Positions 18,742 through 49,125 of a DNA stretch of 64,000 nt are shown in pieces. Origin of the DNA: Diprion similis (lineage: Eukaryota; Arthropoda; Insecta; Hymenoptera; Diprionidae). A model generated the notes under the pieces. The model was not told where the DNA came from. It did no database searches and worked only from the letters and a program-made list of their open reading frames with translations. Made by a program: the position numbers and the translations under genes. The stretch covers positions 4,884,501-4,948,500 of the forward strand of contig NC_060107.1 of the NCBI RefSeq assembly GCF_021155765.1, given 5' to 3'. Position 1 is the stretch's first letter; every line of letters starts with the position of its first letter.

Positions 18742-18987
18742 CTATGTCGCTTCATCAGGTAAAAGTGTCTTTTGATCTTCTGCAGGATCTGTAACAGTTT
18801 CGCTCACCTCTGTTACTCTCGAAGTCTCTACCCTTTTGTTGTACGCCATTGCGTTGCCGTTGGACCTTGATGGATCCATGGCTGACATCTCATCGTGAGT
18901 GTGTTTAGGCTTCTGCTCTGCTGCTGACGAGGTAGCAACAGGTGTACACAACAATTAACAACCGATGAAACTGTTTTGAATATTTGG
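18742..18987 (-). pseudogene. psiA': gene A first coding exon without exon 2
   Basis: This is a duplicate of the first coding exon of gene A. The start codon is at 18879 and 24 codons (MDPSRSNGNAMAYNKRVE and six more) run to a GTGAGC splice donor after 18808. Exon length, start context and donor position equal those of gene A. Upstream it keeps the acceptor at 18988-18989 and the AGCAACAGGTG block at 18934-18944. Similarity to gene A continues a few tens of bases into the intron and then stops. No proline-rich or cysteine-rich second exon follows before the duplicated flank at 18190-18595. An internal deletion of exon 2 is the simplest reading. A distant alternative 3' exon cannot be excluded. 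Confidence 0.65.
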
Positions 18988-19361
18988 CTAATTGTAAGTA
19001 GCGAAGTCGTGACAGTAGAAGTTGAAGTATTGTCTCGTAGCTTCGTTGCATTCTCGTTTCGTTCGCTATTCAGCTCTCACTCGAATCTAGCTGATCACAT
19101 GGGGATTATCTACTCTCGAAAATCATATCTGTGTATAATCAATGTTTTACATCGATTTTTTAAAGCTTCAGTCGTTGTACTGATCTCTCGCGATACGGTT
19201 AGTATTACTTTCTCAAAGGAAGTATATCATATTATTGTGCTAATAATCATCAGCTATCTTTGATTACCGTTCCGCTCACTCACTCTAGTCATTTATTGCT
19301 GATTCGTGGCTCCCACGTCGAGCTCCTATTCTCAACTATCTCTCTTAACACATATAAAGGT

Positions 19362-20400
19362 AGCATGTACATAAAATCCAAGCAATCATGTCATGTATCA
19401 AGATACTATTACTATAAAGAATGCAAAATACAGAATTACAAACTTATCAGGTTTTGATTATTCATGGAAGTAACTCTCCATTACCTACAATCTGCCTCTT
19501 ATAATATAGTATATATTCTACGATGTAGAGTGTATAAGTAAGTCAAATATTTATGCCTAGGTATATGGGTTTGGAACATTTCTGCAATGCGACTGAGTTT
19601 CAGCCCATTATCACAATTAACTTATTGATTTCATATCTTCATCATATATTATACGTAGATTCATTAACAAACGCTCAAGCTAATACAATAATAATATTTA
19701 TAGTGCTAATATATGCATCGAGTATATATGTATAATATATGTATAATATATCTTGACATTTTAGTGTAGCTATATTTGTCGTGTTGACAATGAAGCAATT
19801 CAGGCCATGTCATATCAGCAGCTGCAGAATAATGAGCCGCTCGAATGACGTTTCTAATTTTGAACGCGATACAAGAGTATCTATACGACGAATTCTATTC
19901 AGCCTCCACTGAATTTTAAATCATTCCATGGATTTGTCATAATGTAGGTACAGAAAATCACATATTCGCCTACGTTTGCCGAAAAAAGATAAATTTGAGC
20001 AACTTTTCTGCCAATTACTTTCAAAGCCACACAATTCCGTCGGGGATACTATCAACTTTATGTTTCCGGAGAATTGACACTGAATACTCAATTTTGCCAT
20101 TAAAGGCATTTTAACGGCAATTTAACAGCGCAACACTTCCGCTGATCAGCTTTTACGAAGTTCATCAAGTGTTCTTCGAAGTGTTGACCAAAACTAAATT
20201 ATCTTCTTAATAACTTGTGGTTAACTGTGAAATCAAATCTAGTCATTTCAATGAAAATATGAATGATCCAGTTACGGAACGGCACTATACATCATCTGAG
20301 AATAAAAAAAAAAAAAAAAATGGCACTAAAATGTGAGTGAATTCCGGAAGATCCGAAAATTATTTCTTATTATCAAATCCTAACACAGACTTTCATCCGC
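19362..20400. repeat. Segmental duplication, right copy split by an insertion
   Basis: 19362-19545 and 20180-20400 match the continuous left copy at 18190-18595. The intervening roughly 635 bp (about 19546-20179) has no counterpart there, so it was either inserted here or lost from the left copy. The insert is AT-rich, with a TATA-rich tract near 19715-19750, and has no transposase or clear terminal repeats. Confidence 0.65.
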
Positions 20401-21262
20401 TTTATATTTTACGATAAATTTTCATACGTAAAAGTGCTATATATTTGATTCTGATTAAGCCTCACAATTCAAATGTCCGGTGGTTGATGAAAACTTTTTG
20501 CAAAATTTTTACAAATCCAATAATATTGCACTTTAAATCATGAGGAATGGTTATTGTGCTAGTATTATGGGTTAAATTATGCAGATGAAAAAACGAGGAG
20601 CAATATTTGGTAACGTGGATGTTGTACCTACATCTAAAATCTATTGTAACGCGCATGTTAGTCAGAGACGGTTTCTCACAATAAAAAACGCGCATAGGAA
20701 GACTGCGAAGTATGCTAACTTGTTCGTGACAGATTTGCATCACGTGATAAACCTTTTCCATATCCTCGCTGCTGTAATAAATTAGAAACAAACATTAAAT
20801 AACCCGCGCTTTTGACCATACTGTTATACCATATAAGTGACCGTTAATCCTACGCGCCCAAACGCATCTACAGTCTCACGTGTTTGGTATCGAAAAAGTT
20901 AGAATCGAAGCGGAACTGAAGTTTGATTTTCATCGTCACACTCCACAAGCAATCGGCAATAAATGGTTATTACAAAAATAGTTATAGACCGAATTGCTTG
21001 AAACTAATTTGCAGGCAGTAAAAGCTGTCAATATATCGTTAGATGACAGAAAGAAATCGGTCATTCCTTTCGTCCATTAAGATGCTAATGCTAATACGTT
21101 GATGAACAAGCGCGGTAGATTATGATTACCGAAAAATAACTAAACGATCGGCGTTTGCGAATAGAGTAAAAAATCTCCAGTGCATTCATAAGTGATTTAG
21201 CTGGTATACCTAATTACATTCAACGATACTTAACCAAAGCGATACGACTAGTAGGACTACTA

Positions 21263-22142
21263 CTAGGACGGGATGCAGAGTTTGATGCACTCGCACAAGC
21301 AGTAGCAACTGGTCAAACAACAGAGCAAATTAGAGCAGTCGTCATCGTTTCTACTTGTGTCAGCGTTCTTTTGTACTACGTAAATAGTCTGCGGCGGAGG
21401 AACCTGGTTCTGCAGGTACTGATTCTGCACCGGATAGTGCTGGCCACCCACACCTGACTGCTTCGGATAGATCATCCCCTGGTTCACCTGGGACTCGTAC
21501 TCCACAGGCTGGTATCCCGACATCGCGGACTTCGGTTGCGTCGTCAGAGGGTTCACGAAGCCGATTTGTATCCCAGTCGTGTCGATGGGTGCTGGCATCG
21601 GCATCGCGGCACTGGGATACGGTGCTTGGTTGGCGGGTCCAGACGTGAATGTTGGCTGACTGGTGATCCCGGGTCCCGTTGGATAGGGGGGACTGACCAC
21701 GGGTTGGGGGGCGGCTCCCACGGGTGCTGTTGGGTACGGAGCGTTCGAGGCTACTCCGTCGGTAGGGTAGGGTGCTGGACCTGAGGGATACGGAGGCGAA
21801 CCATTGACGCCGGAAAAGAAGTCGGAGTGGTTTTTCAAGGCCTGGGAATCCTGAGCCACGACTGAGCTGTAAGGCGGCGGTTGCATGCTTGGTACTCCTG
21901 GATTGTACGGATCGGATGAAAGTAGGGGAGCCGAAGGATTTGCCTGGTTATCGTGGTTCGTCGGAGCGCCAACGTGTTTCTGCTGCAAGCGGTGGAGGAT
22001 AATGCGTGTTTGTAACGTTAGGTGATAGTGTCTTTTAAGATTTGGCCTGAGCTGTGACAGTTTCGCTTACCTCTGTAGTCCTCAAAGCCTCTGCCTCTTT
22101 GCTGGACGCCATAGTGGTACCGTTAAACCTTGGCGGATCCAT
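21263..22142 (-). CDS. Gene A: PSAP/PPPY proline-rich protein with cysteine tail
   Basis: Function unknown. Two coding exons are seen. The first runs from ATG at 22142 to 22071 (24 codons, donor GTAAGC). The second runs from 21982 to the stop at 21263, after acceptor TTGCAG and an 88-nt phase-0 intron. The predicted protein has 263 residues. A PSAP motif lies at residues 40-43 and PPPY at 59-62. The middle has repeated PYPT/PYPS units and no membrane helix. The last 27 residues contain eight cysteines (DDDCSNLLCCLTSCYCLCEC region), suitable for palmitoylation or metal binding. PPxY and PSAP bind WW-domain proteins and Tsg101 in known proteins; that they do so here is inference. The exon carrying the start begins at an acceptor at about 22249, so an upstream 5' untranslated exon is expected. 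The acceptor is a tandem NAGNAG site, so one glutamine may be variable. Confidence 0.75.
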
Positions 22143-22190
22143 GGTTGAATGCTGGATGTATGCAGGTATATTCTCTGCTAGTGACGAGGG

Positions 22191-22201
22191 TGCAACAGGT
22201 G
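22191..22201 (-). promoter_or_regulatory. Conserved 11-base block in 5' leader
   Basis: TGCAACAGGTG on plus (CACCTGTTGCA on minus) occurs 22-55 bases upstream of the start codons of A (here), psiA' (18934-18944, one change), B (26616-26626) and C (30989-30999). It lies inside the exon that carries the start. It contains an E-box-like CACCTG. It may be a leader element or shared ancestry only. Confidence 0.45.
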
Positions 22202-22259
22202 GTCAGGAAAATTGACAACCGATGAAGTTGCTTAGCTACGAGTTGTTAACTGAAAATAT

Positions 22260-25160
22260 ATGTAAGTCAAAAAATGTAAAGATGAGTGGAATGGATGGTT
22301 AGGATGAACGGGTTCGATTGAATAAAATCAAAGTGACGAAAGCTACGTGAAAAGTACGTCAAAGTACGACCGACCGGCGCAAACGTACGAACGATATCGT
22401 ATCTTGTAAATACTCCCAGAATACTAGATAAGCATGCGCGTTATTCGAGCTGGTACAGATAAAAGCCAAAAGATTGTGTGTCGGTGCCAACGTGTTTATG
22501 CATACTGAGCATATCTACACAACTGCTATTGTTTTCTATCACAAAGTCGAATAAGAAGTGAAAAAAGAGGACAGAGGGAGACGGATCAAGCTTGATGATA
22601 ATGCCAAGATTTAATTGATGAAACGAAAAACAGTAAAAATTAATCAACGGCAAATTTCACGTTCTCTTCACCCTCATGTCACATGTTATCAATCGGCTAC
22701 AGTTACACCTCGATTAGAATATATTCCAGATCAGTTTTCCACAAACTGCGAAGCACCAGTATTATCACATAAATTTTGTGAAAAATCCTAAAAAAAAATC
22801 GAACCCCAATTTCCGACGAAAAATAACGGACACACTAGCTCCGCGGTCGGAGAATTGCGTATCAACGCATATAGACCATGCACCAGGACATGCGCATGCG
22901 CCGATTAGTTATGCTGTTGAAACCACAGACTTCTGGCGCCTAAAAAGAGACGCCATTGGCAGGGCTGGCTTTACTGCCTATCTCTCTGCTCTCTTCTTCC
23001 CAACACAAACATCATCTGCCGAGTAGATCGCAGTAGGTCAACTTCCCATTTCGAAAATTGGGATCTTTTCCAAATTTCTGAGTACATCTGACACGCTGGA
23101 TAGGCTTAAAAAATTCACCACGTACCTATTTCGTTCGGCTCGCTTTGTCCTTAAGGTCCTTTTCCGCTGATGTCCTGAGCCCAACATGCACTGAACGACC
23201 AATTTCACCAGCGACAAACACAGCCGACGCTTCTTCCTACGCTGAACGCGCACTGCACGCTTACTATAGATGCTTTTCTAGACCGGCTGTACGGCCGAAT
23301 AAAGAGGAGGGGAAACGTGACGCTCGCTTCGACGAAGGCAGTGCCGAATTCATCGAGGGCACCGAGGGCACCGAGGGTGGGAATGGGCTAATTTTCTATG
23401 ACTAATTTCATGGCAGTGTTTATCAACATTTTTGAAATCGCGACCCCTTTACAAGTAGAGAAAATCTGGCGACCCCCCAAGACTATAATGAAAGTATGTC
23501 AGTGATTTCAAAGGATTTTTAAAATCGAAGGACTCCTTGATATAAGACTTCGTCCGCGCTTTTCATTTTTACCTGGCTCACCTGGAACCCCATGGGTATT
23601 GCGACTCACAGGTTGAAGAAGACTGCACTAAGGAATGCGTCACCCACTGTATTACGGCCCTGCGCTTTTACCTTGGGGCATCCTGCAATCCGAGAGGAAT
23701 ATACTTTTCCGAGACTTGATCGTCCAGCGTTTGATTCTGGAAAAGTATCCACGGTCATTGTTAGACACAATGCCTCAGGCTTTAATGGCGCTGTCACATT
23801 TTCCATGCGCAGTATCACAAAATATTAATGACATTGATATTCTAACCGAATTGATGCTGGTGAACAGTATTTTTGATGCATTTTAAACACTTAAATCCTT
23901 AACCAATACTGAAAATCTTTCTACTTACTGTTAGAAATAGTTCACATCGTGTTTGTAGCTCTCGGCTATTTTGTCTATGCAACAATGTTGTATACCGGTT
24001 TGTCCAATAGTTGTCACTCAGCTTCTCGGTAAACAGCCTAAAAATATTTATCCTCCGATAAACGACTCTCGGGCAATCGCGAGGCTGGTTTTATATTTGT
24101 AATGGAATAAAAATAAACCTCTTCAAGTAGAACTATGAGTTTATTTTGGGATGAATCGCTTTCGAATTTTCGAACGCATTTGGATAAATAAAGTTCCTCT
24201 CAATTTTCAAATCTTGCTCAGTAATTAGGAACAGGAAAACCTGCAAAATATTCAACGCACGACGCTTATCAAGATAAGCTTTACATATATTTCTTATTAA
24301 CTAATCTGATCTTACATTTATAATTATTAATTAATCTAAACTGTGAAATTTGTTATACGTTCAATAGCTGACCAATCATTCTGTGTTCTATTTATGAAAT
24401 TATTTTTACTTTGAGATCGGTTTATATGTTCTAAGAAATTCGTTACAAAATAGTTTTCTTAACAATATTTTTTAGTCCCTTCGTTATTAATCTTAATCTG
24501 TTTTTAAAACAATAAATCCGGGAAAATGAGATCACCGCAAATTGTATTTCCATATTTTGTTGTATCAACGTAACGAAATCTTATAGTAATTCTTACTATT
24601 TCTTCTAGTACTCACTCACTAATTATGTCAGATGAAACAATGTGACAATATGAATCAGTGAGCTGATTAAAAATATCCGATTCCAGTAAATAATCGTCAC
24701 CATATTTTATACGGAAGAAGAAAAGTCACCTTTGGGAGGGACAAAAAAAACTCTAACAAGTGTACAATTCTTGGAAATTTTGGTTAACTTTTAAGTAAAA
24801 ATTAATGAATGCAATAAAAAAAGTACACATATGGTTATCTAATTGGGATATAATTTCACGCTGAAAAAACTTATTTCGAAAGAACCCATGTATTAACCAT
24901 AAGTTTCTTTAATTTAACTTTTCGCCAGCCAATATAATAATAATACTCACTATTCGCCGATTGTTATTTCGACCGCAGCATCTTTTCTCCGTGTGAACGT
25001 AGTTGGCCTGTCAAGTGAGAAGAAGCGTGAAAAGCCTGCTGAGTGCTTGCAAGGTGATTTTCAGACAATTTTGGGATACATGATATATAGGCCAAGGGCC
25101 AGAGGGTCGCCGGTACTCATGCCTGTCTCTTTTACCCCTAGAACTCACCCTCTGCACGTT
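22260..25160. other. Intergenic stretch upstream of A and downstream of B
   Basis: No gene is supported. It contains a probable hAT-type transposon end at about 23430-23625 and a long AT-rich stretch at 23900-24900. A promoter and 5' untranslated exon for gene A are expected in the part next to 22249, but no clear TATA/initiator pair could be chosen. Confidence 0.4.
23430..23625. mobile_element. Probable hAT-type transposon remnant
   Basis: The right end read on minus, CAGTCTTCTTCAACCTGTGA followed by GTCGCAATACCCATGGGG, resembles the terminal repeats of hAT elements of the Charlie type (CAGTG, then TTC, CAACCTGTGGGTCGCGACC). Near the left side the plus strand has AATCGCGACCCC and GGCGACCCCCC. 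No transposase remains. The assignment rests on a remembered consensus, so it is tentative. Confidence 0.35.
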
Positions 25161-25174
25161 TTCTCCTGCGAAAG

Positions 25175-25270
25175 CCATGATATTGCCAACATGACGTAAG
25201 CATGTAAAGTCACCCCGTATACACGCTATCGCAGCTTAATCAATGAAAAAGCTTTTGCGCAGCTAATACC
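25175..25270. repeat. Dispersed repeat, copy 1
   Basis: About 95 bp, including TTGATATTGCCAA-type and the exact block TTAATCAATGAAAAAGCTTT, recur in the same orientation at 32222-32316. The two copies bracket genes B and C. Nature unknown. Confidence 0.7.
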
Positions 25271-25868
25271 TTTTTCTCTCAGTGATGCCTTTCCGTGAAA
25301 ACATTCAACCCCGACGACGATGCAGCGAGGAACTCGCGAATATTTTCGCCCACAATTGCCAATTCATCCCAAGGTACGACATTCAACACACTCTGCGTGA
25401 TTTAAGCATCCAGAATATCCTAAATACCGATAACCACGTACAGGGTCGTTGAGTTTTCAGATTTACCACTACTGATCCATACTTGTTATTGTGATACAAA
25501 GTCGTACAAGTATTATTTTTGTACCATGGAATATACAGTATTAGATAAAAAAAAATACAGCTATGTTCAAGTTGAACGTAAATAATTTAATATATTTACA
25601 AAGGTTAAAGATATCTTTTTATTTTCACATAGCTGCCTGATTATTGATTAAAAATCATTATTAATTTGCACTATTTCTCAGTCACAGCAAAGCGAAATAT
25701 TTTCCGTCAACAGTTTTACTCGTGCATGGTGATCACTTCACATCTTCTGCCGCGGAAGTTCAATGAAAAGAAAAACCTCCCCGAACACGATCATAGTTTT
25801 GGTTGAAATAAAAAGTACTTTGTCGGAACAATATTCATTTCACATGGTATGTCAGTATCTATAATATG

Positions 25869-26594
25869 CTACAAAATGGTGCAATCGTCACAACCCCCAC
25901 AATCGACATCCCCTTCGCAACAACCATCTCCGCAACAACCGTCACCGCAACAATCGTCACCGCAACAACCATCTCCACCAGAATCACTTTCCCAAGAGTT
26001 TCCATGATGTACGTAGTGATGGCAAGAGAGATCAGGCACTACGATCGGTAAAAAATCGAGTTCTGTCATTTTTCTGAGCTGTTCTCTCTTCTTGGCTGCT
26101 TCGTCGTCGGTAGATACGATAATGACCGATTGCGGATTAGGCGGTTGCGGTTCTCCCGCTGCCAGGACTGACTCCTTGAATCCAATCGCCGATGGTTCCG
26201 GCTGCACTGTTATGGAAGCTGTGGGATCGGGTTGCGGCTGCGATATCTCCACCAATGGGATTCCCAGCGCAGGATGATTTTCAAGTAAGGAAGACGGTCT
26301 GGTCTGACTTCTCTCCGCGATTTTATCTTGAGCCATAACAGAGCTGTAAGAAGGCGGATCCATGCCGTGGTCATCCACTGGGTTCAACAACTGCAGCGAA
26401 GGAGCAGAAGGACCTGACGATGCGTTTCCGAGGTCTGAAGGATCCCCGCGTTCCTCCCTGGAGAGTAAGAATGACTGGAATCAACCAATCATCGATCACG
26501 CATTTCATTCGGAATTCAAAGTTTCGGATAGTTTTTTACTCACCATCTCTTTCGAGGATGTCTCCGTGCCTGCGGTCGACTTTGGATGATCCAT
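25869..26594 (-). CDS. Gene B: PSAP/PPSY protein with Gly-Asp-Cys tail
   Basis: Function unknown; a paralogue of gene A. The first coding exon runs from ATG at 26594 to 26544 (17 codons, donor GTGAGT). The second is best placed at 26453-25869, giving a phase-0 intron of 90 nt and 211 residues. The acceptor chosen (GGGAG) is weaker than the nearby CTCTCCAG, but only it keeps frame. PSAP is at residues 32-35 and PPSY at 50-53 followed by SSVMAQD, matching gene A (PPPYSSVVAQD). The middle is Pro/Glu rich. The tail repeats GDGCC about four times and ends in CDDC, giving a dense cysteine cluster with acidic residues and no membrane helix. This may bind metal or be lipid modified. The exon with the start begins near 26676 after TTTCAG. 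A TTTATT (AATAAA on minus) lies about 250 bases past the stop. Confidence 0.7.
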
Positions 26595-26699
26595 AGCTAG
26601 CAATGTCGTTGCTCGTGCAACAGGTGAAAATCACGATCGACGACTGCAGGTGAACTTAGTTACCTCCACCTATCAGCTGAAATGGAAAAAACATACGGT

Positions 26700-28520: not shown

Positions 28521-28531
28521 GGTTGAGTCCA

Positions 28532-30316: not shown

Positions 30317-30664
30317 CTAGTCGTCGCAGCAATCTCGCGAGCAACAGTCTATCTGTGAACAGCACTTGTAGAAAAGACAATAGCAGAGGATTTCACATAA
30401 GAACTGTAAACAACAACCCCGACAGCTTTCAACGTCGTTTCTTCGGCTGGAGTTCTCAGGCGTATAGAAAGCTGCACGGATCCCTGTGTTGGGATTTGAA
30501 ACTAACTGACCAATCTCGTTCTGATGACGATTATTGGCTGCCTTATTTTCAGTGAGCTTAATCAATTCTTGACGTAAATCTCGATGATCGTGCTTTGTAT
30601 TCAGAACAGTTTGCGGGCCAACTGCTTCAGTAAAACTTAACCTTCTTACATGATTCGGTTGCAT
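30317..30664 (-). CDS. Gene C: small cysteine-tail protein
   Basis: Function unknown. A single exon of 115 codons from ATG at 30664 (A at -3) to the stop at 30317. The first 80 residues are polar and charged with no PPxY or PSAP motif. The last 35 are cysteine rich (CCLQFLCEILCYCLFYKCC, then further CC pairs) and end in Asp-Asp, resembling the tail of gene A in spacing and gene B in its paired cysteines. The cysteine segment is also hydrophobic (LCEILCYCLFY), so it may insert into or attach to a membrane. About 300 bases upstream is a relic of the family's first coding exon (ATG at 30967, MNPSKPIARTIEL) with the shared leader block. It has no usable splice donor and reads into a stop, so gene C appears to have moved its start to the second exon. 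Confidence 0.5.
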   Translation of the reverse strand: MQPNHVRRLSFTEAVGPQTVLNTKHDHRDLRQELIKLTENKAANNRHQNEIGQLVSNPNTGIRAAFYTPENSSRRNDVESCRGCCLQFLCEILCYCLFYKCCSQIDCCSRDCCDD

Positions 30665-30901
30665 GGTAATGGTCCGATGGTAGAAGAGCTAAAAACTGAT
30701 TTTTTCAGATACTGATGTGCCTTTGTTCCAAATCAATCAACGAGCTGCGAGAGGGTGGACCCAAAACTCTTTCTACTGGTTCCGACGCACTTATCTGCAA
30801 ATGTGAAGTAAAAAAAACTGACAATTCATAAGTAAGATCTGCAGGATCATGGAGTGAGGAAAGCTGGAAGCATGCGATACTTGATCACAAGCTGAAGGTC
30901 C

Positions 30902-36213: not shown

Positions 36214-36248
<35 letters not shown>
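36214..36248. repeat. (AT)n microsatellite
   Basis: About 17 AT dinucleotides; further imperfect GTATAT repeats follow at about 36360-36410. Confidence 0.9.
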
Positions 36249-36250
<2 letters not shown>

Positions 36251-37160: not shown

Positions 37161-38071
37161 CTAAGGTGTAAGCCTCTTCACATGCCTTTGGAGATGTTTG
37201 TTTCTGGTATTCCGTTTGAAGAGAGAGTGACCGAATCTGTGATCCGCGTCGTAAACGGTTGGTCGACTTTCCGAGTTTTTGAACTGAGGCAATTGCTTGA
37301 CGAACCCGATCGTAGCCCTGTTTAAAGCCTCGAAGTCGTAGTCACGAGGTGGCAGTGCTGAATTAGCCAAAGAACGTTGGTATCGGTTCTGATCGAGACC
37401 GTCGACCTTGCGGAAATCCTCTTGGAATTTCCAGCGCATTTCATCGTGCACCCACTCCTCCTGCAGTTGTTTTTGTTTTTTCCACTTTTGACCCAACCTC
37501 ACACCGATAACGATCCCTAACAAGATCGCTCCCATCGCTACGAAAATCTTCAAGTATAACCGAAATCCTGGTGAAATTCAAATATTATCATATCAGAATC
37601 AGGTCGAACTATTTCTATCATCTAGAAAAGTCACTGATGCCACTAATCCCAAAACGGTACCACAGCAATTATCCACAAGTATTCAAAAAGAACAGTACTA
37701 ACTCTAGAGGTAAAACAAAAACAATTACTTGGGCTCCTTGAATTGTCTGTTTGGGGAAAAATCCTTGGGACGATTGCACGGGCGGGTTGAGGTACGTTCA
37801 CCATGGGGTCGTGAATCGTAGAGCCGTAAGGGGTGCTGTTGAACACAAATTGTGACATCGGTTGTCCATTCTCTATGGGCACCTGGTTAACGGGGTTGTA
37901 GTACGGTGTGGTGTCCTGCTGAACCGGCGCCATTGTGGGATAGGGTGGAGGTTGCCTGGATTCCACCGGTACCGGGGTGTAAGTCCCCTGGGACTGCGGG
38001 GCCTTGAGACTGGAGTACGGGGGTGGCCGGAATTCAGATTGCGGCGCACTCGCTCCCGGTTTGCCCATCAT
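37161..38071 (-). CDS. Gene D: double PPPY protein with membrane helix, long tail
   Basis: Function unknown. A 5' untranslated exon ends at 38147. The next exon starts at 38082 and carries tandem ATGs at 38071/38068, coding to 37729. The last exon is 37567-37161. The coding intron (161 nt) is phase 1, donor GTAATT and acceptor CACCAG. The protein has 249 residues. PPPY occurs at residues 16-19 and again at 41-44. The proline-rich half runs to about residue 114, followed by one hydrophobic helix (about 119-137, KIFVAMGAILLGIVIGV) and a charged tail of about 110 residues ending in basic residues. There is no signal peptide, so an N-terminus-in, single-pass orientation is likely, which would put the PPxY motifs in the cytosol. 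The tail is far longer than in paralogues E, G and I and is unlike anything I recognise. The first half is about as similar to gene E as expected from a recent tandem duplication. Confidence 0.75.
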
Positions 38072-38146
38072 GGGGTAGGCCTCTGAAAAAAGTCAGATGA
38101 GTGTGATGTTTTGCAAGTGCTTGATGTGAAAATGAACACTGGTCAC

Positions 38147-38270
38147 CTAGACTGATTTTTTTTCCGACTGTACTGCGATTCCGATCCGCGAAACGGTGCG
38201 ACTTGTCTCTTCCGACGACCGCGATCAACTGCGCGCTATTTTGCACCGGCTAAATGGGATTCGCGAGAGA
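38147..38270 (-). other. Gene D 5' untranslated exon (left end firm, right end not)
   Basis: The donor CTAG|GTGACC at 38147/38146 aligns with the donor of the matching exon of gene E at 41749. A 64-nt intron separates it from the start-codon exon (acceptor TTTTTTCAG). The frame is open to a stop with no ATG, and the gene E copy has a stop, so the exon is non-coding. Its 5' end could not be fixed. Confidence 0.55.
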
Positions 38271-38586
38271 AAAATAGAACCCATTCGGCACTGCGTGCTT
38301 CGACTTGACGCGCGTTGTTCTGGAGCGAATCTTTCCTGTCTTTTTCTGCATGACCTTGTGAATTATTAAACGAGTCGATATGACTCTATCGAATCTATGT
38401 TTTTAAGCGGAGTTTTTTCTTTTTTTACGGCTGTGGTTGTTCAGATAATTTATCGGGCCTTCAGATCTCGGCGTTGTGGGTTACGGGTCAAGTGAATGAT
38501 GAATCGACAATGCAATGAAAAATAGAGAAGAATAACAATTGTCTGACAGATAGCACTTAAAAAATGCTAAAAAAAAATCGATACAA

Positions 38587-39340
38587 TCACACGAATCTCA
38601 TTACGCAAATTGCAAATGAAGGCATGATTATGACGATCAGAGATAAAAGAGGAGAAGAACCTCTGTTGCCAACTGTTCTCACTGATTTTGCTTGGTTCAT
38701 CAGCGACGGGAAATCCCCAAGCCAGACCTGCGCGTAACGTGGATTAGCCAGTAGTGCAATGATTGGTTTCAAGTTTCTTATTTTTTTTTTTTTTTTTTTG
38801 CGTTTAGTTAGTGGGCTGCTTATCCTAAACTATAAAACGCCGGATAGCACTTATTTCAATCGACAGTCAATTGACGTCAGCAGAATACTTACCGCAAACC
38901 GGTGACTATATAAAATCACACGAAACCACAAGCTTTTGCTACTTCGCTGATGTTCGTATATCTAACTATTTGAATGGATCCGTAAAATCTGCGCAAATCC
39001 CGACAACTCTGTTGACCAAAATGGCTGACTTATCCCACACCGTCGCGTCGTGAACAGAGTAGACGGACTTCAAACGGAGTGAATTATCGATCTATTGATG
39101 ATATGCGAGGTGATTTGGTTCCGTGGAATGCTCTTGAACATGTCGTCCATACAAAGCATTTACTATCGAACATGCTTGCACCTTGCATGCAGAAAATAGA
39201 TCCCGAAACGACTGGGATATGGTTCTTAAATTCTTTCCTAGTTCTGTTTTTTGGAGACCAATTGCCTCGCTTCACTAATAACATTGATTATGGACACCAT
39301 TGGAGACTAGGGGCTCACCTATTCTTGCGATAACGTTCTC
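38587..39340. repeat. Highly conserved part of tandem duplication, copy 1
   Basis: This block matches 42830-43530. Between about 38864 and 39130 there are only two or three differences, while neighbouring parts of the duplication differ at many more positions and have large indels. It contains TATAAAA at 38831, an initiator-like CGACAGTC about 30 bases on, the palindrome TGACGTCA (CRE/ATF site) at 38872-38879, and a second TATATAAAA at about 38910. A 60-codon open frame crosses both copies but begins at TTG with no ATG. Confidence 0.75.
38831..38879 (+). promoter_or_regulatory. Candidate core promoter with CRE-like site
   Basis: TATAAAA at 38831-38837 precedes an initiator-like sequence by about 30 bases and a full TGACGTCA palindrome by about 40. 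The whole arrangement recurs in the duplicate at about 43045-43093. It points away from genes D and E (plus strand). No transcript partner could be identified. It may serve as a divergent promoter or an enhancer for the cluster. Confidence 0.35.
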
Positions 39341-39490
39341 ACCCACTTCATTGACGGTCGGGGTTTCGAGAATTGACTGCTTTGCCCGTACAACATACAC
39401 CACTGAAGGCTTATCACTCGCGAACAGGAAGGATTGTATCAATTCCACCGATGAAATGTGCACGCCGTTCGCTCCATTCACGCCGAGCAC
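39275..39490 (-). pseudogene. Possible serpin C-terminal exon fragment
   Basis: A minus frame reads GVNGANGVHISSVELIQSFL, then FASDKPSVVYVVRAKQSIL. The arrangement resembles the hinge and C-terminal strands of serpins (EVNEEG, a variable reactive loop, then F-x-A-D-x-P-F-x-Y-x-I-R and SILFxGR). Key positions are lost: Ser instead of the signature Phe, and no FxGR after SIL. It lies mostly in the roughly 390 bp of unit 1 that is absent from unit 2, with a plausible donor (GTGAGC) near its 3' end. I cannot exclude chance resemblance. Confidence 0.25.
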
Positions 39491-40429: not shown

Positions 40430-40794
40430 CTCCATCGATCGTTTATTGGCACCAATGGTCAGATTTCAAACGCCAGAATTGTTCTTTAATTCTACAGAGG
40501 CAAAATGCCATCAATTCGGCATGAGGCGTGTTGATTGTATCACTGAACCAGACATGGAACATCATATTTTTCTGACGTTGGTGTTGGAATTCGTATTGGC
40601 ATCCTCATTTGCGGAGAAGTGTTTACGTACCTTGCGTTTACGAGAATTGGTGCAGCGGTAGGTGTTGCCTCCGTTCCATGAAGGTATTGACGGTGCGTGG
40701 CGGGGCAATCCGTCACCTAAACCCTGGTACGTAGGTGGTGGAGTATGTGGCTCCACGCCAGTTGCTGTCTTCGAGACATCCATGACGGCAAGCT
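40430..40794 (-). pseudogene. psiF: broken copy of gene G
   Basis: It begins after a family-type acceptor (ATTCTAG ending at 40795) and keeps an ATG at 40783 and MDVSKTATGVEPHTPPPTYQ, parallel to the start of gene G including a PPxY (PPTY, residues 16-19). An insertion or deletion near CCCCGCCACGC then shifts the frame. The Met-Pro repeat follows in a different frame (ATGAGGATGCCAATACG). At about 40555 the sequence jumps to one homologous to DNA downstream of gene G's last exon, so the rest of exon 2, the intron and the helix exon are deleted. The frame that stays open ends in unrelated residues (73 codons to 40562). It lies only about 108 bp downstream of the end of gene E. Confidence 0.7.
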
Positions 40795-40901
40795 CTAGAA
40801 TATAGAAGACGAGGTTCTTAGACTGGGACTAAAACTTTAATTTACCCGCAACTATAACGAACGTAATTCTCCGAACCTTGACATATTTGGATGGTTTATT
40901 C

Positions 40902-41674
40902 TCACCAGTAGTCGCCCAGTGAAGATGCGTCGAACAGCTTCCTGTGCTGGCTAGACAGTTCTTCGAACTTCCTCTCGAACCGCTGTTGCTCCTCCTGTAT
41001 CTTTAGATACCACCACAGCCAGCCCCCGAACACAATCAAGGTCAAGATCACTACTATCACTGCAAAGATCATCACCACCCGAGATCCTGATCAAATTGAA
41101 AAAATATCATCAGAATCAGGTTGAACCGTTTCTATCATCTCAATAAGCCACTGATACCACTAGCCTCGGAGCGTTAGTACCTACAGTAATTACCCGCAAG
41201 TGTGGCGAATGCCATAATGAATGTTTGTAACCCAGTATAAAAAAACGAGCGAGTTAATACCACTGTTAAAATCTAAAAAAGAACAGTACAAACGCCAGAG
41301 GTAAAACAACAGCAATTACTTATGCGCCTTGAAATGGCGGTTTGGGTCGCCACCACGATCGTCCGACTTGGGCTGATTACACGGGGGGTCGGAAGTGCGT
41401 TCGCCATGGGGTCGTAAGTCGTAGAGGCAAGAGAGGTACTGTTGAACACAGGTTGTGACATCGGTTTTCCGTTCTCCATCGACACCTGGTTAACGCGGTC
41501 ATGGTACGGCGTGGTGTCCTGCTGAACCGGCGCCATTGCGGGATAGGGTGATGGTTGGCTGGATTCCACTGGTACCAGGGTGTAAGTCCCCTGGGACTGT
41601 GAGGCCATGAGACTGGAGTACGGGGGTGGCTGGAGATCTGGTTCCGGCGCGCTCGGTTTTGGTTTGCCCATCAT
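40902..41674 (-). CDS. Gene E: PSAP/PPPY protein with single membrane helix
   Basis: Function unknown; tandem paralogue of gene D. Tandem ATGs begin at 41674 in an exon starting at 41685 (acceptor TTTTTTCAG). Coding runs to 41320, then 41086-40902 after a 233-nt phase-1 intron (donor GTAATT, acceptor GATCAG). The last exon starts at GATCTCGG and has no ATG. The 179-residue product has PSAP at residues 7-10, PPPY at 16-19 and a proline-rich region to about 118. A strong hydrophobic helix follows (about 122-145, VVMIFAVIVVILTLIVF with a GWLWWYL edge), then a 33-residue Glu/Gln/Lys/Arg-rich tail that may be a short helix. The second PPxY of gene D is lost here (PSPY). No signal peptide is present. 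GAATAAA overlaps the region just past the stop, a possible polyadenylation signal. Confidence 0.75.
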
Positions 41675-41748
41675 GGAGTAGGCCTCTGAAAAAAGTCGGA
41701 TGAGTGTGACGTTGTGCAACAGCTTGTTGAAAAAATCAACAATAGTAC

Positions 41749-41870
41749 CTAGACTGATTACTTTTCTACGGCAGTGAGATTCCGATCCACGAAACAGCGC
41801 GTTTTGTCTCCTCCAACGACCGCGATCAACTGCGCGCTATTTCTCACCGGCAAGATGGGATTTACGCGAG
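41749..41870 (-). other. Gene E 5' untranslated exon (right end uncertain)
   Basis: The donor CTAG|GTACTA aligns with gene D's untranslated exon donor. A 63-nt intron follows. The equivalent frame contains a stop, so it is non-coding. Confidence 0.5.
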
Positions 41871-42829
41871 AAAAAAAAAAACTCTTTCGGCACTGCGTAC
41901 TCCGACTTGACGCGCATTATCTTGAAACGAGTTTTTGCTGTCCAATAGCGTATGCGTAGTAACCGCACCGTACGCAGCGAGGCAAAAGATGCGAAGCCAA
42001 TTTATCACCGGTATTTTTTAATCAGCATCTTGAACATGATCTTGTGGATTGTTGAATGAGTCACAGTTATTTATGGGAATGTGAGCAAATGACGCAAGCC
42101 GAAAGACACGCCTGGCTCTTCGTGCATTGACCGCGTCGATCTTTTATCAGCGGTGGTAGTGGTATCACTGTCAGCAACGTATTTTAAGCGACCGAAGAAC
42201 TCCTGATTCTGAAAGATGTTGATTACATGGACACCAACGTATTGCACTTTTCTTCCGGATTGAACTGAACTTGGTCGCAGAACACACTGACTTTCACGGG
42301 CCTTCTGCGCAGCTCTCGAGCCTGACTGCTATTTTAACGTTTTGATACGAGGTCACACACGTACAGGCGGGAGAGTATTAACCCAAAATCGCACGTGACG
42401 AGTCCATACTCGGTTCGCGATAGTTTACCGCGTGTCTACTGGCGCCTGAATAAATTGATACTTTGTGTGCTTGTGAAGCGTGTGGTGGAATTATGAAAGA
42501 AGAAACGATACGCCCCTCAATGTTCTCGGGATTTAGACCATACACCGAATTCTGGTAATCTTAACGTAATCTGACACTGCGTGATTAGGGTTAGGTTAAA
42601 ATCTAACTTGTTCACTTTTCAGCGATCACTTGATACAAAGCGTTGCTCAGCTCATGCATTCAAAGTCGGGGTTTTTTATGTCCGCTGCTGTGGTTGTTAA
42701 GATAATTCATCGAGCCTAAAGATCTTGGCGTTGTGGCTTACAGGTCAAGTGAATGATGAATCGATAATGCGATGAAAAATGGAAAAGAAAAGCTAAAAAT
42801 ATTGATACAATCCCAAGTATCTCAGTACG

Positions 42830-43530
42830 CAAACTGCAAATGAAAGTACGATTACGACGATCGAAGATAAAAGAGGAGAAGAACATCTGTTGCCAACTGT
42901 TTTCAATGATTTTGCTTGGTTCATCAGCGACGGGAAATCCCCAAGCTAGACCTGCGCGTAATGTGGATTAGCCAGTAGTGCAATGATTGGTTTCAAGTTT
43001 CTTATTTTTTTTTTGTTCAGTCAATGGGCCTGCTTATCTTGAACTATAAAACGCCGGATAGCACTTATTTCAATCCACAGTCAATTGACGTCAGCAGAAT
43101 ACTTACCGCAAACCGGTGACTATATAAAATCACACGAAACCACAAGCTTTTGCTACTTCGCTGATGTTCGTATATCTAACTATTTGAATGGATCCGTAAA
43201 ATCTGCGCAAATCCCGACAACTCTTTTGACCAAAATGGCTGACTTATCCCACACCGTCGCGGCGTGAACAGAGTAGACGGACTTCAAACGGAGTGAATTA
43301 TCGATCTATTGATGATATGCGAGGTGATTTGGTTCCGTGGAATGCCCTTGAACATGTCGTCCATACAAAGCATTTACTATCGAACATGCTCGCACCTTGC
43401 ATGCAGAAAATAGATCCCGAAACGACTGGGATTTGGTTCTTAGATTCTTTCCTAGTTCTGTTTCATTAGATACCAATTGCCTTGCTTCACTCATAACATT
43501 GATTATGGATACCATTCGAGACTAGGGGCT
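42830..43530. repeat. Highly conserved part of tandem duplication, copy 2
   Basis: Counterpart of 38587-39340, with TATAAAA near 43045 and TGACGTCA at 43086-43093 preserved. Confidence 0.75.
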
Positions 43531-44144
43531 CACCTATTCTTGCAATAACGTTCTCACTTAATTCATTGGCCATTCAAATATTATGAAATACATTTATTTT
43601 TCTGATCTGTAAACCGCTTTTGTGGGTGAATTTCACGAAAGAAATCATTCAGTTATGTGACTGTGCATAGGAACCGTTACATTGGATCCTCAACTCTCTA
43701 GTTCACCAGCAAAATTATTCTTATTATCAATTAGACTACAGATTTCAGTCTTTGCATTTGCAACTCCTAAGTACAGAACTGCATAATGAATATTGATATG
43801 TTATGCGTATGGTATCGATGAAATAGAATTAGTGCAAAGGAAAAATCACTCCTAGACTTACCAGATTCTCCAGTTTCATTAGTATATATACATATATATA
43901 TTTTTCACATCACAGGTGTATAATTGAAGACAGAAAATTGCTGTTATTAAAATTTTGATTATTTCCATCAATTGTTAATTGGCATCAGTTACCAGGTTCC
44001 AAATGCAAGGATTGTTTTCGACCCGCACAAAGGCGAAATGTGATTGATTCGTATTTTGGCCTGTAAGCGGATGATTTCACCAGACTCGGAGCGCCACGTT
44101 TCTTACGGTATCTCAACGCCCCCACACTTTCCGGCGAAACTAAA

Positions 44145-44823
44145 TTAATAGTAGCTTCTTATGAATGCGGCCTCATACATTGTGATGATGAGTATTGCAA
44201 ATGCAATAACAATGGTGACGAAACATGCTGAAATTATACAATCACTGGATGAATAAATAAATATTGATTCCGTCGACGGATTTTAATGGTACAATTATAC
44301 ACCAAAAATTCCAAACTAACAGAAAACATGCATAAACAATGATGTTATATTTACTTGCTGCACGTAATAGACTTGATTTTTGTGCAACAACATGAGTCAC
44401 TTCGGAGGGTAACGCCGTCTGAACAGTCGTCGCGCCGGTATCTGAACTTTCGTAGTTACTTCCGGTGTATGTGGGATTATTGGTAATATCTCGGCTTGCT
44501 TCTTCCGGTGGATTAACTGAGCCTACCACCCTGGGGTGGGGGCAACCATGGTTGTACTGTGAGATGGGCGGTTGCATCGACATCTGTTTTGGCATTGGCA
44601 TCGGCATTGGCGTTGGCAATGGCTTTGGCATTGGCACCATCATCTGTGAAGACATGTTTGGGTACTCTGAGTCTACGGGGTTGGATGCAGTGGCAGGTCT
44701 CACCTTCGTTGCAAAACCGTATTGACGGTGGGGCGATCCGTTAATTGAATCCTCGTACGAAGGTGGTGGAGCCAAGGGTGGAGCATTTGGCTCCGTGCCA
44801 ACCGTTGTTTTCGGGAAATCCAT
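44145..44823 (-). CDS. Gene G: PPSY, Met-Pro-repeat protein with membrane helix
   Basis: Function unknown. ATG at 44823 lies in an exon starting at 44836 (acceptor ACATTTTAG). Coding runs to 44355, then 44227-44145 after a 127-nt phase-1 intron (donor GTAAAT, acceptor ATTTCAG). The product has 183 residues. PPSY is at residues 20-23. A Met/Pro-rich repeat (about 61-85) comes from a GGCATT/GGCATC hexanucleotide tract at 44591-44640 on plus. The last exon encodes only 26 whole codons, almost all one helix (FVTIVIAFAILIITM) and a short tail RSYY. If read through the intron, the frame gives a different hydrophobic end, so intron retention could also yield an anchored form. The likely orientation is cytosolic N-terminus with tail anchor. 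A perfect donor (GTAAGTAAG) at about 45468 marks a probable 5' untranslated exon upstream. Confidence 0.8.
44591..44640 (-). repeat. Coding hexanucleotide repeat (Met-Pro) in gene G
   Basis: Imperfect tandem GGCATT/GGCATC/GGCAAT units on plus encode alternating Met-Pro (with Leu and Thr variants) on minus. Confidence 0.85.
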
Positions 44824-45468
44824 GTGAGGACAAGTTCTAAAATGTAATAGACGAGGTTTTTGAACCGGCACTAATACTATGATCGAATGGCAACTAAGTT
44901 AAAAGTAATTCTACGAACAACCATCAATTTTGAATTCTCGAGTGGAGAGCATTTGTCGGAATATTCTTTTTTTCATATCACACTTTCAAGCCACCTTCTT
45001 ACTCAGATGATGGAGAGTGTCAGACTTTCAACTACTTCCGAGGCTATCGATAATACTGGGTCACATAGCAAAAATTATTAAATAAAGTCTGGTTCACAGC
45101 ACATCTGTAATCACTCATACCGAAATAAAGTGTGAGTGTTAAAAGCTAACCAATCCATTTCAAACTAGTGAATATCTTAAAATCCGACAATGAATGAAAA
45201 TTCATGTAAAACGATTCAAGAAAAACAGCTGATAGTATGGACAGGTATATGCCGTCTTATCTGACCAGAGGTCTAAATTTCGGTAACGGAATGTAAATAA
45301 TGGTTACTTCGGATACAATCACTTATTGCATGATATAACCCTGGCTCAGTAATAAGTAACTTGATGCTGAAAGACCTCTGAATCTGAATCACAAAATGTG
45401 TCTGAGAATCGGGAATTACAAGCTTAGCAAAAAAAAAATACTGTGGAAAAGGAAATGTGCTTACTTAC

Positions 45469-45600
45469 AATTAGACCAAATGCTGAGACGATCTACTGAT
45501 CGTAGGTTCAGGATCAAGTGAACTTGAATGGACGCCGTCGAAGGACTACACGGAAAAACCAAAAAACAACGAAACTACATCGTGTGTTCATTAGGAATAC
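45469..45600 (-). other. Probable gene G 5' untranslated exon
   Basis: On minus, TCTAATT|GTAAGTAAGC at 45469/45468 is a near-ideal splice donor, and the next acceptor downstream is that of the gene G start exon (44837). No ATG-started frame joins in frame that I could find. The 5' end is not determinable. Confidence 0.35.
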
Positions 45601-47078
45601 CGTCAGAGGGCAGCCACCACGCGTACATCACCATGCATGCCTCCCTTAGAACATACAGACTTGGAGGAAGCTTCGTATACACATTCGTGTAAGTGAAAAA
45701 CGACACGGAGACGGAAGCAGTGTTCCCGGGCATTTATTTAATCTTAAACAAATATCGGAAAAATTCCTTTGACGCACGCATATCAGGCGGCTAACCGAGA
45801 TTATCATTTACATGACTTGGTTCTACGATTAAGGAAAGGATAAGGAGAAACCGCATGAGCGATTTGAAGTAGAAATAATCGAAAAAACTTCCGCAAGCGG
45901 TTGAAGAAAATGAAACACTGTGTGATGTAAAGAAGAGGCATGAAACAAATTATTGTGAATTATGGAATCTACCCAATATCCAGAGGCAAAGGACATTGAA
46001 GATGTGCCAGCCCCCCAATTCTATGAATGAATATTGCATCAACACCTTGTCGGGTATACATCAACTTTTTAATTGAGACTCAAACTTGAACTAAACAGAT
46101 CACGCACTTTTATTGTACAGACCGTGACGCACGAGATCGGAATAAGGAAAATGTTTACTCTTGTAAACGTCGTTGTGAATGATTTCTAAAAAAAAGTAGA
46201 GGAGTGAACGAAGTGCTTGATATGAGATGATGTTCCTCGAATCAAATGGTAACTCACTGTCAGTACGGTTGGTAAATGAACAATGAGAAAAATTTTAATT
46301 TTGCATATATCTCAAAGTCAGCTATTCTGCTGAATATGTACCTACTTAGAGCGCTGCGCGTTGTTCGGCAAAATACTGTACCGATTCGCGAATAAACTCG
46401 AACAGTTATTGCCAGCAACTCGACAGGTGCAGACACACGAGTTTGTTCCCCTTCCGTTATTTTTTCGTACTCTACATCTTATTTCATCACCATTGTTTTT
46501 TGCGAGTGATTCAATCAGCTTAATCTACGTTATTCTTATAGTAACTAGATGAATGGCAGTTTTATTGGCCGACAAAGCATCGCATCAAATTTTTCTCCTG
46601 ATCTATCCCATACCTATACCAAATCCCATATCTGAAAAACTGTTCGAAGAACGATCCAAGAATGGACTAGATTTTCGGCTGTATGCTTTGGTGTCTCGAT
46701 GTAGCCTCAAAATATTGCTCGCAACCAGCTGAGGTACTCAAAATACATTCAAAATACTCGCGAATTTATATTCGTTGAAATGATAACCAGCGTAGAATGG
46801 TCACCCCAACTTTTTACTTGAACCGGCCTCTTGGCTTTGATTATTTCTTGGATTCACTCCTTGAGTGCTTCACAAGTTCAATTTACAACAATACATCGAT
46901 ACTGACGGATACACCGATCTGCGTATAATTTTACCAAGTTAACATTCACTCTCTACGAAACTGTGGCACATTTTTTACCTGGAAGCTCGAAAGACACTGT
47001 TCGCTTCTTATCTTATCTCCCTTGGGTAAGCTGGAGATTTATGGTTCTTGTCCATTACTTTCACACAAATTTGACTGT
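45600..47078. other. Intergenic stretch between psiH and gene G
   Basis: No intact gene. An inverted copy of the psiH 5' region lies at 46502-46604. A search by eye for a helix-encoding exon for psiH between 46.6 and 47.1 kb on minus found none. Confidence 0.4.
46502..46604 (+). repeat. Inverted partial copy of psiH 5' region
   Basis: Reads, in reverse complement, almost the same as 47472-47575: the block GATGAATGGCAGTTTTATTG, then AAAGCATCGCATCAAATTTT. It stops short of the PPxY-coding part. The two arms lie about 0.9 kb apart and could form a cruciform or hairpin transcript. Confidence 0.8.
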
Positions 47079-47118
47079 CACTGTTTGAATGGTTCTTCCT
47101 AGACGTCGCGTGCATATA

Positions 47119-47526
47119 CCTGTAACGGGGTCAAGATGAAGCGAGTTTTTCTATTGTCCATTGTCAATTTCTTTGCAATTGCATCATTTGAGATCTTCGT
47201 CACGAATCCATTGCCGTCGTACTGTAAAGCGTTTGGCTGCATCGACGTCGATGTTAACGTCGACATCGGCATTGGCATTGACATTGACACCGTTCCCCCC
47301 TGAAAGGTCTCCGGATTTTCCGGTGTCTCGGGATGCGGTGTCGTAGGCAGAAGCGGCATTGGAAATCCGTATTGTTGGTGCAACCCTTGGAGAAAAGACT
47401 TTCGTACGATGGAGGTGGAGGAGTCATTGGCTCATTGCCGGCCGGTGTATTTGAGCCTTCCATTTGAGGGAGATCAAGAGAAAAATTTGATGCGATGCTT
47501 TGACGGCCAATAAAACTGCCATTCAT
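47119..47526 (-). pseudogene. psiH: frameshifted PPSY/Met-Pro family member
   Basis: An in-frame ATG at 47463 (and one upstream at 47526) begins MEGSNTPAGNEPMTPPPPSY, the family N-terminus with PPSY. After SYESLFSKG (about 47390) the frame loses the family pattern. The continuation HQQYGF (compare HRQYGF in gene G) and the SMSMPMPMS repeat lie in another frame that stays open to 47099. The acceptor position just before the ATG reads CTCCCTCAA without AG, unlike F, G and I. No helix exon was found downstream, although a CAGGTATAT donor-like site is at 47119. The frameshift, lost acceptor and missing last exon argue for a pseudogene. A sequencing error could explain only the first. Confidence 0.6.
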
Positions 47527-47980
47527 CTAGTTACTATAAAAATAACGTCGGTAAAGCTGATTGAATTACTCGCGAGAAAGTTAGTAAATAGTTAGTTTAG
47601 TTCGTAAATATAAGCAAAAAATAACCGCTAGTGAGCGCAACTGTCCCACTATTCTGGGCCAAAAATAAATAAGTCAATCAAAAGGTGCGAAACATTTTTC
47701 TTCTTCAATCATAGGTAATCATAGAACGCCAATCAGGGAGTTCGTCAAGTTTTTTCCAAACTCTGAAGGAGACTCTGTTCAATAACAGACGACACTTTAA
47801 TTTTTGTTCTTGATTAGTACAGTTCTATAATATTCTCTTGCTTTGTTTAACAAACCATGTGATTTGTTAACTCCTTGTCTTGCGATATTATTTTCATCTA
47901 CTCGTACTTCGTATTTTGTTCTTGCGAACCTATATTTCTTTCAGATTTTCATTGTAAACCGAATATTTTTATTGACTTTC

Positions 47981-48072
47981 TGCTATTATGCTTTAAATCT
48001 AACCGTTTTCACCTAATAAGCATTTTGCTATTGTGCTCTAAGCCTAATAGTTTTCATTGAATAAATACTTTG
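47981..48072. repeat. Two-copy tandem repeat of about 45 bp
   Basis: GCTATTATGCTTTAAATCTA and GCTATTGTGCTCTAAGCCTA start two successive units, each followed by a GTTTTCA and AATAAGCAT/AATAAATAC pattern. Minor and non-coding. Confidence 0.55.
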
Positions 48073-48342
48073 TACAACGTATCACAGATGAGGCTAATAC
48101 GTGACGGTCTGATTTTTATTTAGTTTTTATTTAAACGATTATAAAATGAATAAATTATTTTGCAGATATCTGTGCTTAAGTCAAAAAATTTTATCTGATT
48201 TTTTAGGATCACATTTAACGTGCGAAAAATTCTTCAAGGTTTGAACTTCCGATTGCAAATGGAATCAGAAAAACTGTCAAGCACCTCCCAAATCCGACCA
48301 CCCACTGGCTATAGCTCCAGTAGCCCATACCTGAAGACGGTA

Positions 48343-49009
48343 TTAGTGAAATCTCCTTATCATGGTTGATATGGCAATCAGGATTCCACACAGGACTAAG
48401 CCAATCGCGAAGGCACAGCATACTGGAAGAAAATTTTTCAACGAATAAGTACGAATTTCATGTATACCTTCTTCAGGTGTACGAAACCAATGAGCATATG
48501 ATGAGAATCGGTAATTTACATGCTGGTTTGAAGTCCGAGGTTTTCTGCTCCTCTGGGAAAACATGGATAGTTTGATCCCTCGCGGACGACCCAAAACTGA
48601 CATGTGACACGTGAGTAGCCACTGCACGGTTGTGATCACTCCCGGAGTAATTATGATCGTGGTCAGTGGTCCTGAACGTTTCGGCAATCCCATAGCTGGT
48701 CGATGTGCTTTCCCTGGGTTCGTCGAAGTGCGACTCGTAGATGACTCGTGACGCCGGCATGGGCATCGGCATGGAAGCAGGCATGGGCATTGGCATCGGC
48801 ATCGACATCGGCATCGGCATCGGCATCGGCATCGGCATTGGCATCCGGTGAAATGTCTCTGCGTGATTCGGCGTCACTGGATAGGGTGCAGAAGCTGGAG
48901 GCTGGTGGGTTACGAAACTGCATTGGTGTGACCGTTCGTTCACAACGGTGGAGTACGAGGGTGGTGGAGTGATTGGCTCCTCGCCGGTGTTTCCTTTTGG
49001 TTCGTACAT
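48343..49009 (-). CDS. Gene I: PPSY, long Met-Pro-repeat protein with membrane helix
   Basis: Function unknown. ATG at 49009 in an exon starting at 49022 (acceptor GACTTCCAG). Coding runs to 48520, then 48422-48343 after a 97-nt phase-1 intron (donor GTAAAT, acceptor TTCTTCCAG). The product has 189 residues. PPSY is at residues 16-19 and a PSAP-like ASAP at 39-42. A Met-Pro repeat of about 30 residues (56-86, with MS and AS interruptions) is encoded by a hexanucleotide tract at 48757-48844. The last exon gives 25 residues, nearly all a Cys-containing helix (CCAFAIGLVLCGILIAIS), plus the basic end RRFH. The paired cysteines at the helix start may be palmitoylated. Two AATAAA signals on minus (48131-48126 and 48120-48115) lie about 210-230 nt past the stop. 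A donor-like ATCAG|GTGATA near 49318 suggests a 5' untranslated exon. It is the first gene of the cluster in the direction of transcription. Confidence 0.8.
48757..48844 (-). repeat. Coding hexanucleotide repeat (Met-Pro) in gene I
   Basis: About 14 near-perfect GGCATC/GGCATT units on plus. In frame on minus they encode Met-Pro. The other frames give Asp-Ala and Ser-Ala runs, which are artefacts. Confidence 0.9.
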
Positions 49010-49125
49010 CTGACGACGAGCTCTGGAAGTCGAAAAGAATAGCTTATGGTTATCATGCTCCGCATGCAGTGTTCGATAAAGGAATCGCGAGAGTATCAAA
49101 AACAGGATAGAATATGAAGTAAGTT

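Follow-up and report, generated by a model that had tools for sequence, protein, structure and literature searches.

A tandem family of putative membrane-anchored PPxY adaptors, one with a CYSTM-like tail, at a single locus of Diprion similis

A 64,000-nucleotide stretch of the genome of Diprion similis (Hymenoptera, Diprionidae; assembly GCF_021155765.1, NC_060107.1, positions 4,884,501 to 4,948,500), hereafter called the window, carries on its minus strand, between 18.7 and 49.0 kb, an array of 10 copies, of which seven can be read as genes (A, B, C, D, E, G and I), the others (A', F and H) being remnants. Judged from the sequence, this is a real family of a recognisable type, found at one locus of the genome, locally expanded and partly decaying, whose C-terminal anchors have turned over to an unusual degree. 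The gene models, their motifs, a sub-threshold CYSTM-like tail in gene A and a loss of similarity between D and E within the anchor exon are all read from the DNA itself, and the tail of A likely provides the family with a named relative. We propose, with a confidence that we would call evenly balanced, that this tandem family (one locus in one genome) encodes small, cytosol-facing PPxY adaptors for NEDD4-type ligases, which would be membrane-anchored and would have grown from a CYSTM1-like ancestor.

According to this proposal, a PPxY motif in the proline-rich N-terminus would dock the WW domains of NEDD4-type ubiquitin ligases, and TSG101 may bind the PSAP motif of A, B and E. A C-terminal anchor would tether this complex to a membrane and thereby allow membrane cargo to be ubiquitinated and sorted. 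The anchor would be the fast-changing part of these proteins: it is cysteine-rich in A, B and C, and consists of a hydrophobic stretch on a separate phase 1 exon in D, E, G and I.

Gene models and copies of the array

In the order of transcription, the copies are I, H, G, E, F, D, C, B, A and A'. Two-exon models with consistent splice sites and an open frame could be built for A, B, D, E, G and I. Genes D, E, G and I (4/4) have in common a phase 1 last intron before the anchor exon, with donors of the form (A/T)|GTAAWT. Gene D (37161–38071; 249 amino acids (aa); exons 38071–37729 and 37567–37161) contains two PPPY motifs, and its last exon encodes a transmembrane-like stretch and a tail of more than 100 residues. 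Gene E (40902–41674; 179 aa; exons 41674–41320 and 41086–40902) carries PSAP, PPPY and a transmembrane-like stretch. The last two genes of this type both bear PPSY and end with a transmembrane-like stretch: G (44145–44823; 183 aa; exons 44823–44355 and 44227–44145) displays MP repeats, and I (48343–49009; 189 aa; exons 49009–48520 and 48422–48343) a long MP repeat and three cysteines in its terminal stretch. The Met-Pro runs of G and I (44242–44823 and 48473–49009) derive from a CCGATG-type hexamer repeat of differing length, and a like repeat is found in another frame in the frameshifted H.

Genes A and B open with a short coding start exon, followed by a phase 0 intron. Gene A (21263–22142; 263 aa; exons 22142–22071 and 21982–21263) combines PSAP, PPPY, APYP/PPYP repeats, a QTIYVV element and the cysteine-rich, CYSTM-like C-terminal tail, and gene B (25869–26594; 218 aa; exons 26594–26544 and 26474–25869) combines PSAP, PPSY and a CCGDDCC-type cysteine-repeat tail. 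Gene C (30317–30664) is a 115-aa open frame with a cysteine-rich hydrophobic tail and without PPxY, which begins at a later ATG; its relic PPxY exon (30665–30794) has an acceptor, then reads GPPSRSSL, with PPSR in the place of PPxY, and runs into a stop. The remnants comprise A' (18742–18879), a copy of the start exon of A (18879–18808) with its donor, whose frame, read on, ends at 18742 and for which a tblastn search with A returned no second exon, and two frameshifted copies, F (40562–40783, with PPTY) and H (47254–47463, with PPSY). One arm of an inverted repeat (46496–46604 and 47471–47579, 92% complementary) lies just upstream of the ATG of H (47463).

A six-frame search of the window yielded 19 PPxY motifs, of which nine lie within eight family copies (A, B, D (twice), E, F, G, H and I, that is, eight of 10 copies and six of seven readable genes). 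The other 10 lie in short frames elsewhere, including those at 44991, 51641 and 63272, all on the plus strand. A CAG or TAG placed 11–13 nucleotides (nt) 5' of the ATG was found in D, E, F, G and I only (5/10 copies). No such acceptor precedes A, B and A', where a coding start exon has a donor behind it; the 5' end of C resembles these three, but without a donor that could be modelled, and H has no AG at this position.

These models bear on an original prediction made from this DNA, which described seven apparently intact and three broken genes on one strand, all but C with an N-terminal PPxY, and a family-type acceptor before the start exon. The array, its three remnants and the PPxY motifs of A, B, D, E, F, G, H and I are confirmed. 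However, C is not intact like the other genes, because its upstream exon ends in a stop after PPSR, and the acceptor belongs to half of the copies (D, E, F, G and I) and is missing from A, B, A', C and H.

Relatedness and confinement to one locus

Among the 21 full-length pairs, seven scored above all of 200 shuffles (A–B, A–D, A–E, B–C, D–E, E–I and G–I). The other 14 were reached by one shuffle (B–E, E–G) up to 169 (C–D) of the 200, B–G being one of three pairs reached by one or two; D–G (125/200) and C–G did no better than shuffles. Pairwise scores thus exceed chance for the close pairs, and what joins the family is a series of linked pairwise resemblances, together with the order of motifs, the gene structure and the position, rather than similarity of all members to each other.

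We searched the whole genome (269 Mb, 60 contigs) with eight protein queries from six genes (A, exon 1 of D, exon 1 of G, exon 2 of B, the tail of A, C, and the anchor exons of D and E; gene I was not a protein query). Convincing copies were found only within the cluster, at E-value limits of 0.001 for one query and 1 or 10 for the rest, under which intron-split genes could escape. Two candidates for further members, a translated match of G exon 1 on contig C10 (E-value 0.9) and a match of the tail of A on contig C2 (E-value 1.5), were taken for chance. No locus outside the array resembled the anchor exons of D or E at E-values up to 1, nor did A find a relative among solved structures at the same limit; on viral contigs, seven stretches fitted a pattern and none was confirmed as a relative. 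Among the top-ranked matches in the open PubMed Central literature, no paper dealt with such an insect family, a paper on a moth LITAF family concerning a different one.

The CYSTM-like tail of gene A

The tail of gene A matches the Pfam family CYSTM (PF12734) over profile positions 1–36 of 37, including QTIYVV, with 14.5 bits (E-value 0.041) for the 267-aa open reading frame (ORF), 18.6 bits (E-value 0.0021) for the 61-aa tail and 18.8 bits in a genome-wide scan. None of nine exact shuffles of this tail matched CYSTM. According to a published description (PMC10217909), CYSTM proteins consist of a strand, a variable linker and a C-terminal helix with five or six cysteines followed by an acidic residue, three or four of these cysteines being adjacent. 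Gene A presents a putative TIYVV-type strand, a variable linker, a terminal cysteine-rich hydrophobic segment and an acidic residue in that order; its tail holds eight cysteines, with a glutamate after the sixth, and has a hydropathy of 1.86 over 19 residues. At the position of this strand element, E, G and I read TIVV, THVV and TIHV, respectively, with weak support from shuffles. At most two cysteines are adjacent in A, as against the run of three or four in CYSTM; the unspliced reading of E has three. Since two defining features, the curated cut-off and the run of adjacent cysteines, are missing, we do not file A as a member and call it CYSTM-like.

Several observations weigh against a kinship with CYSTM. 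Indeed, none of the three scores of A reaches the curated cut-off of 25.2 bits. Weak matches to other families, three in all and including ToxB_N at an E-value of 0.0047, arose in two of the nine shuffles; shuffles therefore reach comparable values by chance, and an E-value near 0.002 is not decisive for CYSTM on its own. The genome-wide profile scan returned four sub-threshold matches, among which A ranked third, two of the three others scoring higher (19.9 and 19.6 bits). Judged from their translations, these three looked like chance frames with cysteine runs, but such runs of adjacent cysteines are just what A lacks. CYSTM was matched by no other family frame among the 13 scanned against Pfam (eight ORFs, C and four anchor exons, at E-values up to 10, with exons taken apart and A' and the short start exons of A and B left out). 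For the eight ORFs, CYSTM in A was the sole informative match, H weakly matching POF1B_HlH (E-value 0.15); the anchor exon of E gave six matches below cut-off (best Strabismus, E-value 0.0069), and that of D matched LapA_dom (E-value 0.12). Finally, the similarity of the strand before the anchor, compared over 21 pairs, gave lowest shuffle P-values of 0.014–0.024 (A–G, A–I, C–G and A–E), which are not significant after correction.

Anchors: duplication, turnover and possible alternative tails

The turnover of the anchor is best seen between D and E. These genes are 81.9% identical in the main exon and 82.6% in the 3' part of the first intron. In the anchor exon, identity is 64.9% over the first 60 nt and 44.2% over the next 120 aligned nt, versus a shuffled mean of 45.9%. 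Further upstream, the region 38571–39353 of D (minus strand), which contains by eye a consensus GCG|GTAAGT donor, agrees with that of E (42795–43568) at 94.7% of 772 aligned bases; this excess over the main exon suggests gene conversion or a strong upstream constraint. The upstream regions of F and G are similar from 40876 (44918 on the side of G), just past the stop of E, with 71% identity over 87 nt. As this similarity starts just beyond E, the G and E pair and the F and D pair are probably duplicates of one unit. After duplication, either the anchor exon of one copy would have been replaced or the remainder would have been converted.

The spliced tails of D, E, G and I each contain one strongly hydrophobic stretch (Kyte–Doolittle values over 19 residues of 2.33, 3.08, 2.31 and 2.71, respectively), and the cysteine tail of B is, by inspection, not hydrophobic. 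No D-type phase 1 transmembrane exon was found within about 1.2 kb downstream of A, B and C at a hydropathy of at least 1.9; a single transmembrane-exon candidate was retrieved for each of the three, in phases 0, 0 and 2, respectively, those of A and B lying inside their own coding exon.

When the donor is read through, D, E, G and I acquire other C-termini: SNCFCFTSRVSTVLFEYLWIIAVVPFWD in D (37643–37729, a possible alternative anchor), SNCCCFTSGVCTVLF in E (41273–41320, a possible alternative cysteine anchor), a hydrophobic tail SKYNIIVYACFLLVWNFWCIIVPL... in G (44242–44355; the tail as compared is SKYNIIVYACFLLVWNFWCIIVPLKSVDGINIYLFIQ) and CKLPILIICSLVSYT in I (48473–48520), all on the minus strand. 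All four tails reach a hydropathy of 1.9 or more over 13 residues and contain two or more cysteines, versus 15 of 755 controls (2.0%), these being readings of 14–40 residues from NGTAA sites outside the cluster. This result is suggestive and not proof, as the thresholds were set after the tails had been seen, D and E stem from a duplication and introns rich in A and T tend to encode hydrophobic residues. The retained tails of D and E are 86.7% identical, with a ratio of non-synonymous to synonymous rates (dN/dS) of 0.60 on 15 codons; since the remaining intron is also 78.1% identical and 15 codons are too few, no special constraint on the retained tail emerges. It is an unlikely, if testable, idea that one gene could give two anchors, splicing producing a transmembrane helix and intron retention a short, hydrophobic, cysteine-bearing and possibly palmitoylated tail; the same PPxY adaptor would then be sent to two membranes, and an ancestral CYSTM-like tail would be preserved in the intron.

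The prediction of a tandem family marked by duplication, decay and sequence turnover is borne out at this locus. Its division of anchors into a cysteine cluster or a lone helix describes the gene models, but is not a clean split, as the read-through tails of D, E, G and I bear cysteines. The anchors were also predicted to be interchangeable, which is only partly supported: D and E share their PPxY exon but not most of their anchor exon, and a retained intron encodes an anchor-like tail.

Proposed function and alternative explanations

One alternative is that the proteins are LITAF, NDFIP or Shisa-like proteins in a degenerate form. PPxY or PSAP motifs and membrane association are common to these families; LITAF/SIMPLE (PF10601) has an N-terminus with PSAP and PPxY, and NDFIP1/2 are PPxY adaptors of NEDD4 ligases. 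However, the 17 zf-LITAF-like matches detected genome-wide (E-values up to 0.01) are located on contigs C2, C3 and C4, none within the window, and none of the 13 scanned frames matched a LITAF, NDFIP or Shisa model, Pfam including models for NDFIP and Shisa-like families. Each spliced tail has one hydrophobic stretch, unlike the three helices of NDFIP, and none has a LITAF domain. LITAF membership is excluded accordingly, as had been predicted, and it is very improbable that the proteins are degenerate members of any of these three families. The prediction of no named family thus stands with regard to these three, but the tail of A makes a named relative likely. A LITAF-domain exon array on contig C4 (21557035–21591850) represents a separate expansion in the same genome.

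The likeness of A to CYSTM could instead result from convergence on a cysteine-rich, possibly palmitoylated C-terminus, the family then being real, unrelated to CYSTM and unnamed. We consider this a tentative alternative: the scores under the cut-off, the members without a match, the higher scores of two probable chance frames and the cysteines of A, which alternate and are not clustered, all fit it, but the match of A spans virtually the whole profile with its strand element, same-residue shuffles fail to reproduce it, and the N-terminal PPxY context agrees with animal CYSTM1, whose N-terminus is rich in PPxY and Pro-Tyr. A mostly decaying cluster, in which A and perhaps B work and C to I are duplicates drifting without constraint, seems to us a comparably doubtful possibility. 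Three of 10 copies are broken, C is truncated and distant members are weakly alike; moreover, the main exons of D and E have a dN/dS of 0.98 (dN 0.210, dS 0.215), a value that does not demonstrate purifying selection on the protein and that also speaks against our functional reading. Conversely, the frames and splice sites of D, E, G and I are still open, and the single D/E main-exon indel is 12 nt long and in frame. Drift would be expected to create about two stop codons among the 63 D/E changes, given that 3.3% of single changes lead to a stop; none is seen, which has a probability of about 0.1 by chance, and the main exons of G and I have a dN/dS of 0.46, with a dS of 1.49 that is near saturation.

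The proposal of anchored PPxY adaptors accommodates strong hydrophobic stretches in D, E, G and I, a weaker one in A and PPxY in six of the seven readable genes. We infer WW binding, membrane insertion, the membrane side, cargo sorting and the ancestry of D to I from a CYSTM form. These last genes depart from CYSTM in that D, E, G and I take a mostly cysteine-poor hydrophobic stretch from a separate exon. A further point against the proposal is that the more than 100 residues beyond the hydrophobic stretch of gene D set it apart from classical tail-anchored proteins.

For the mechanism, we rely on parallels with known systems, which are to be read as analogies. CYSTM-like proteins are best studied in plants (PMC10217909) and in yeast. 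Plant CYSTM genes also occur in tandem arrays, including in Arabidopsis, and for one of the plant proteins the cytosolic N-terminus is cited as the part that binds COP9 subunit 5 (PMC8049917). Human CYSTM1 is said to ‘seem to interact’ with BAG3 (PMC10030403), a WW-domain protein. A functional parallel is offered by the herpesvirus PPxY membrane proteins UL56, ORF0, UL42 and U24, which combine a cytosolic PPxY with a membrane anchor and bind Itch, of the Nedd4 family (PMC5849660); these are viral, and no sequence relation is claimed.

If correct, our proposal would add a fast-evolving insect array to the CYSTM-like proteins and connect these with PPxY/ubiquitin-ligase adaptors; the array would then be a known kind of protein that has expanded locally in an unusual way, not a wholly new one. 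The array could then serve as a compact natural experiment, in which the membrane anchor was swapped and the docking head kept.

Genomic surroundings

Within the window, 10 long ORFs outside the cluster had no Pfam match at E-values up to 0.1, a search that short-exon genes may escape, and no Rfam family was matched at the gathering threshold. Contig C1 starts with TTAGG-type repeats, exact (TTAGG)6 giving 10,134 forward and 6,641 reverse overlapping matches versus none for the reversed control. To the left of the window, about 44 to 30 kb away (L018–L020), long open frames of a tandem repeat (KGLYKSIRRREIFGSEMQQKRK... unit) are perhaps satellite-like. Tandem Ins_allergen_rp genes also lie on this side (L022:2413-3291, 3769-4464 and 7665-8447; all three tested ORFs match this insect-allergen-repeat family), with a very similar ORF pair about 12 kb further left. 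These genes and the TTAGG-type repeats are in keeping with an insect genome. To the right, at approximately 107040–112286 in window coordinates (L027), are two similar tandem groups of ORFs, which presumably resemble a glycosidase.

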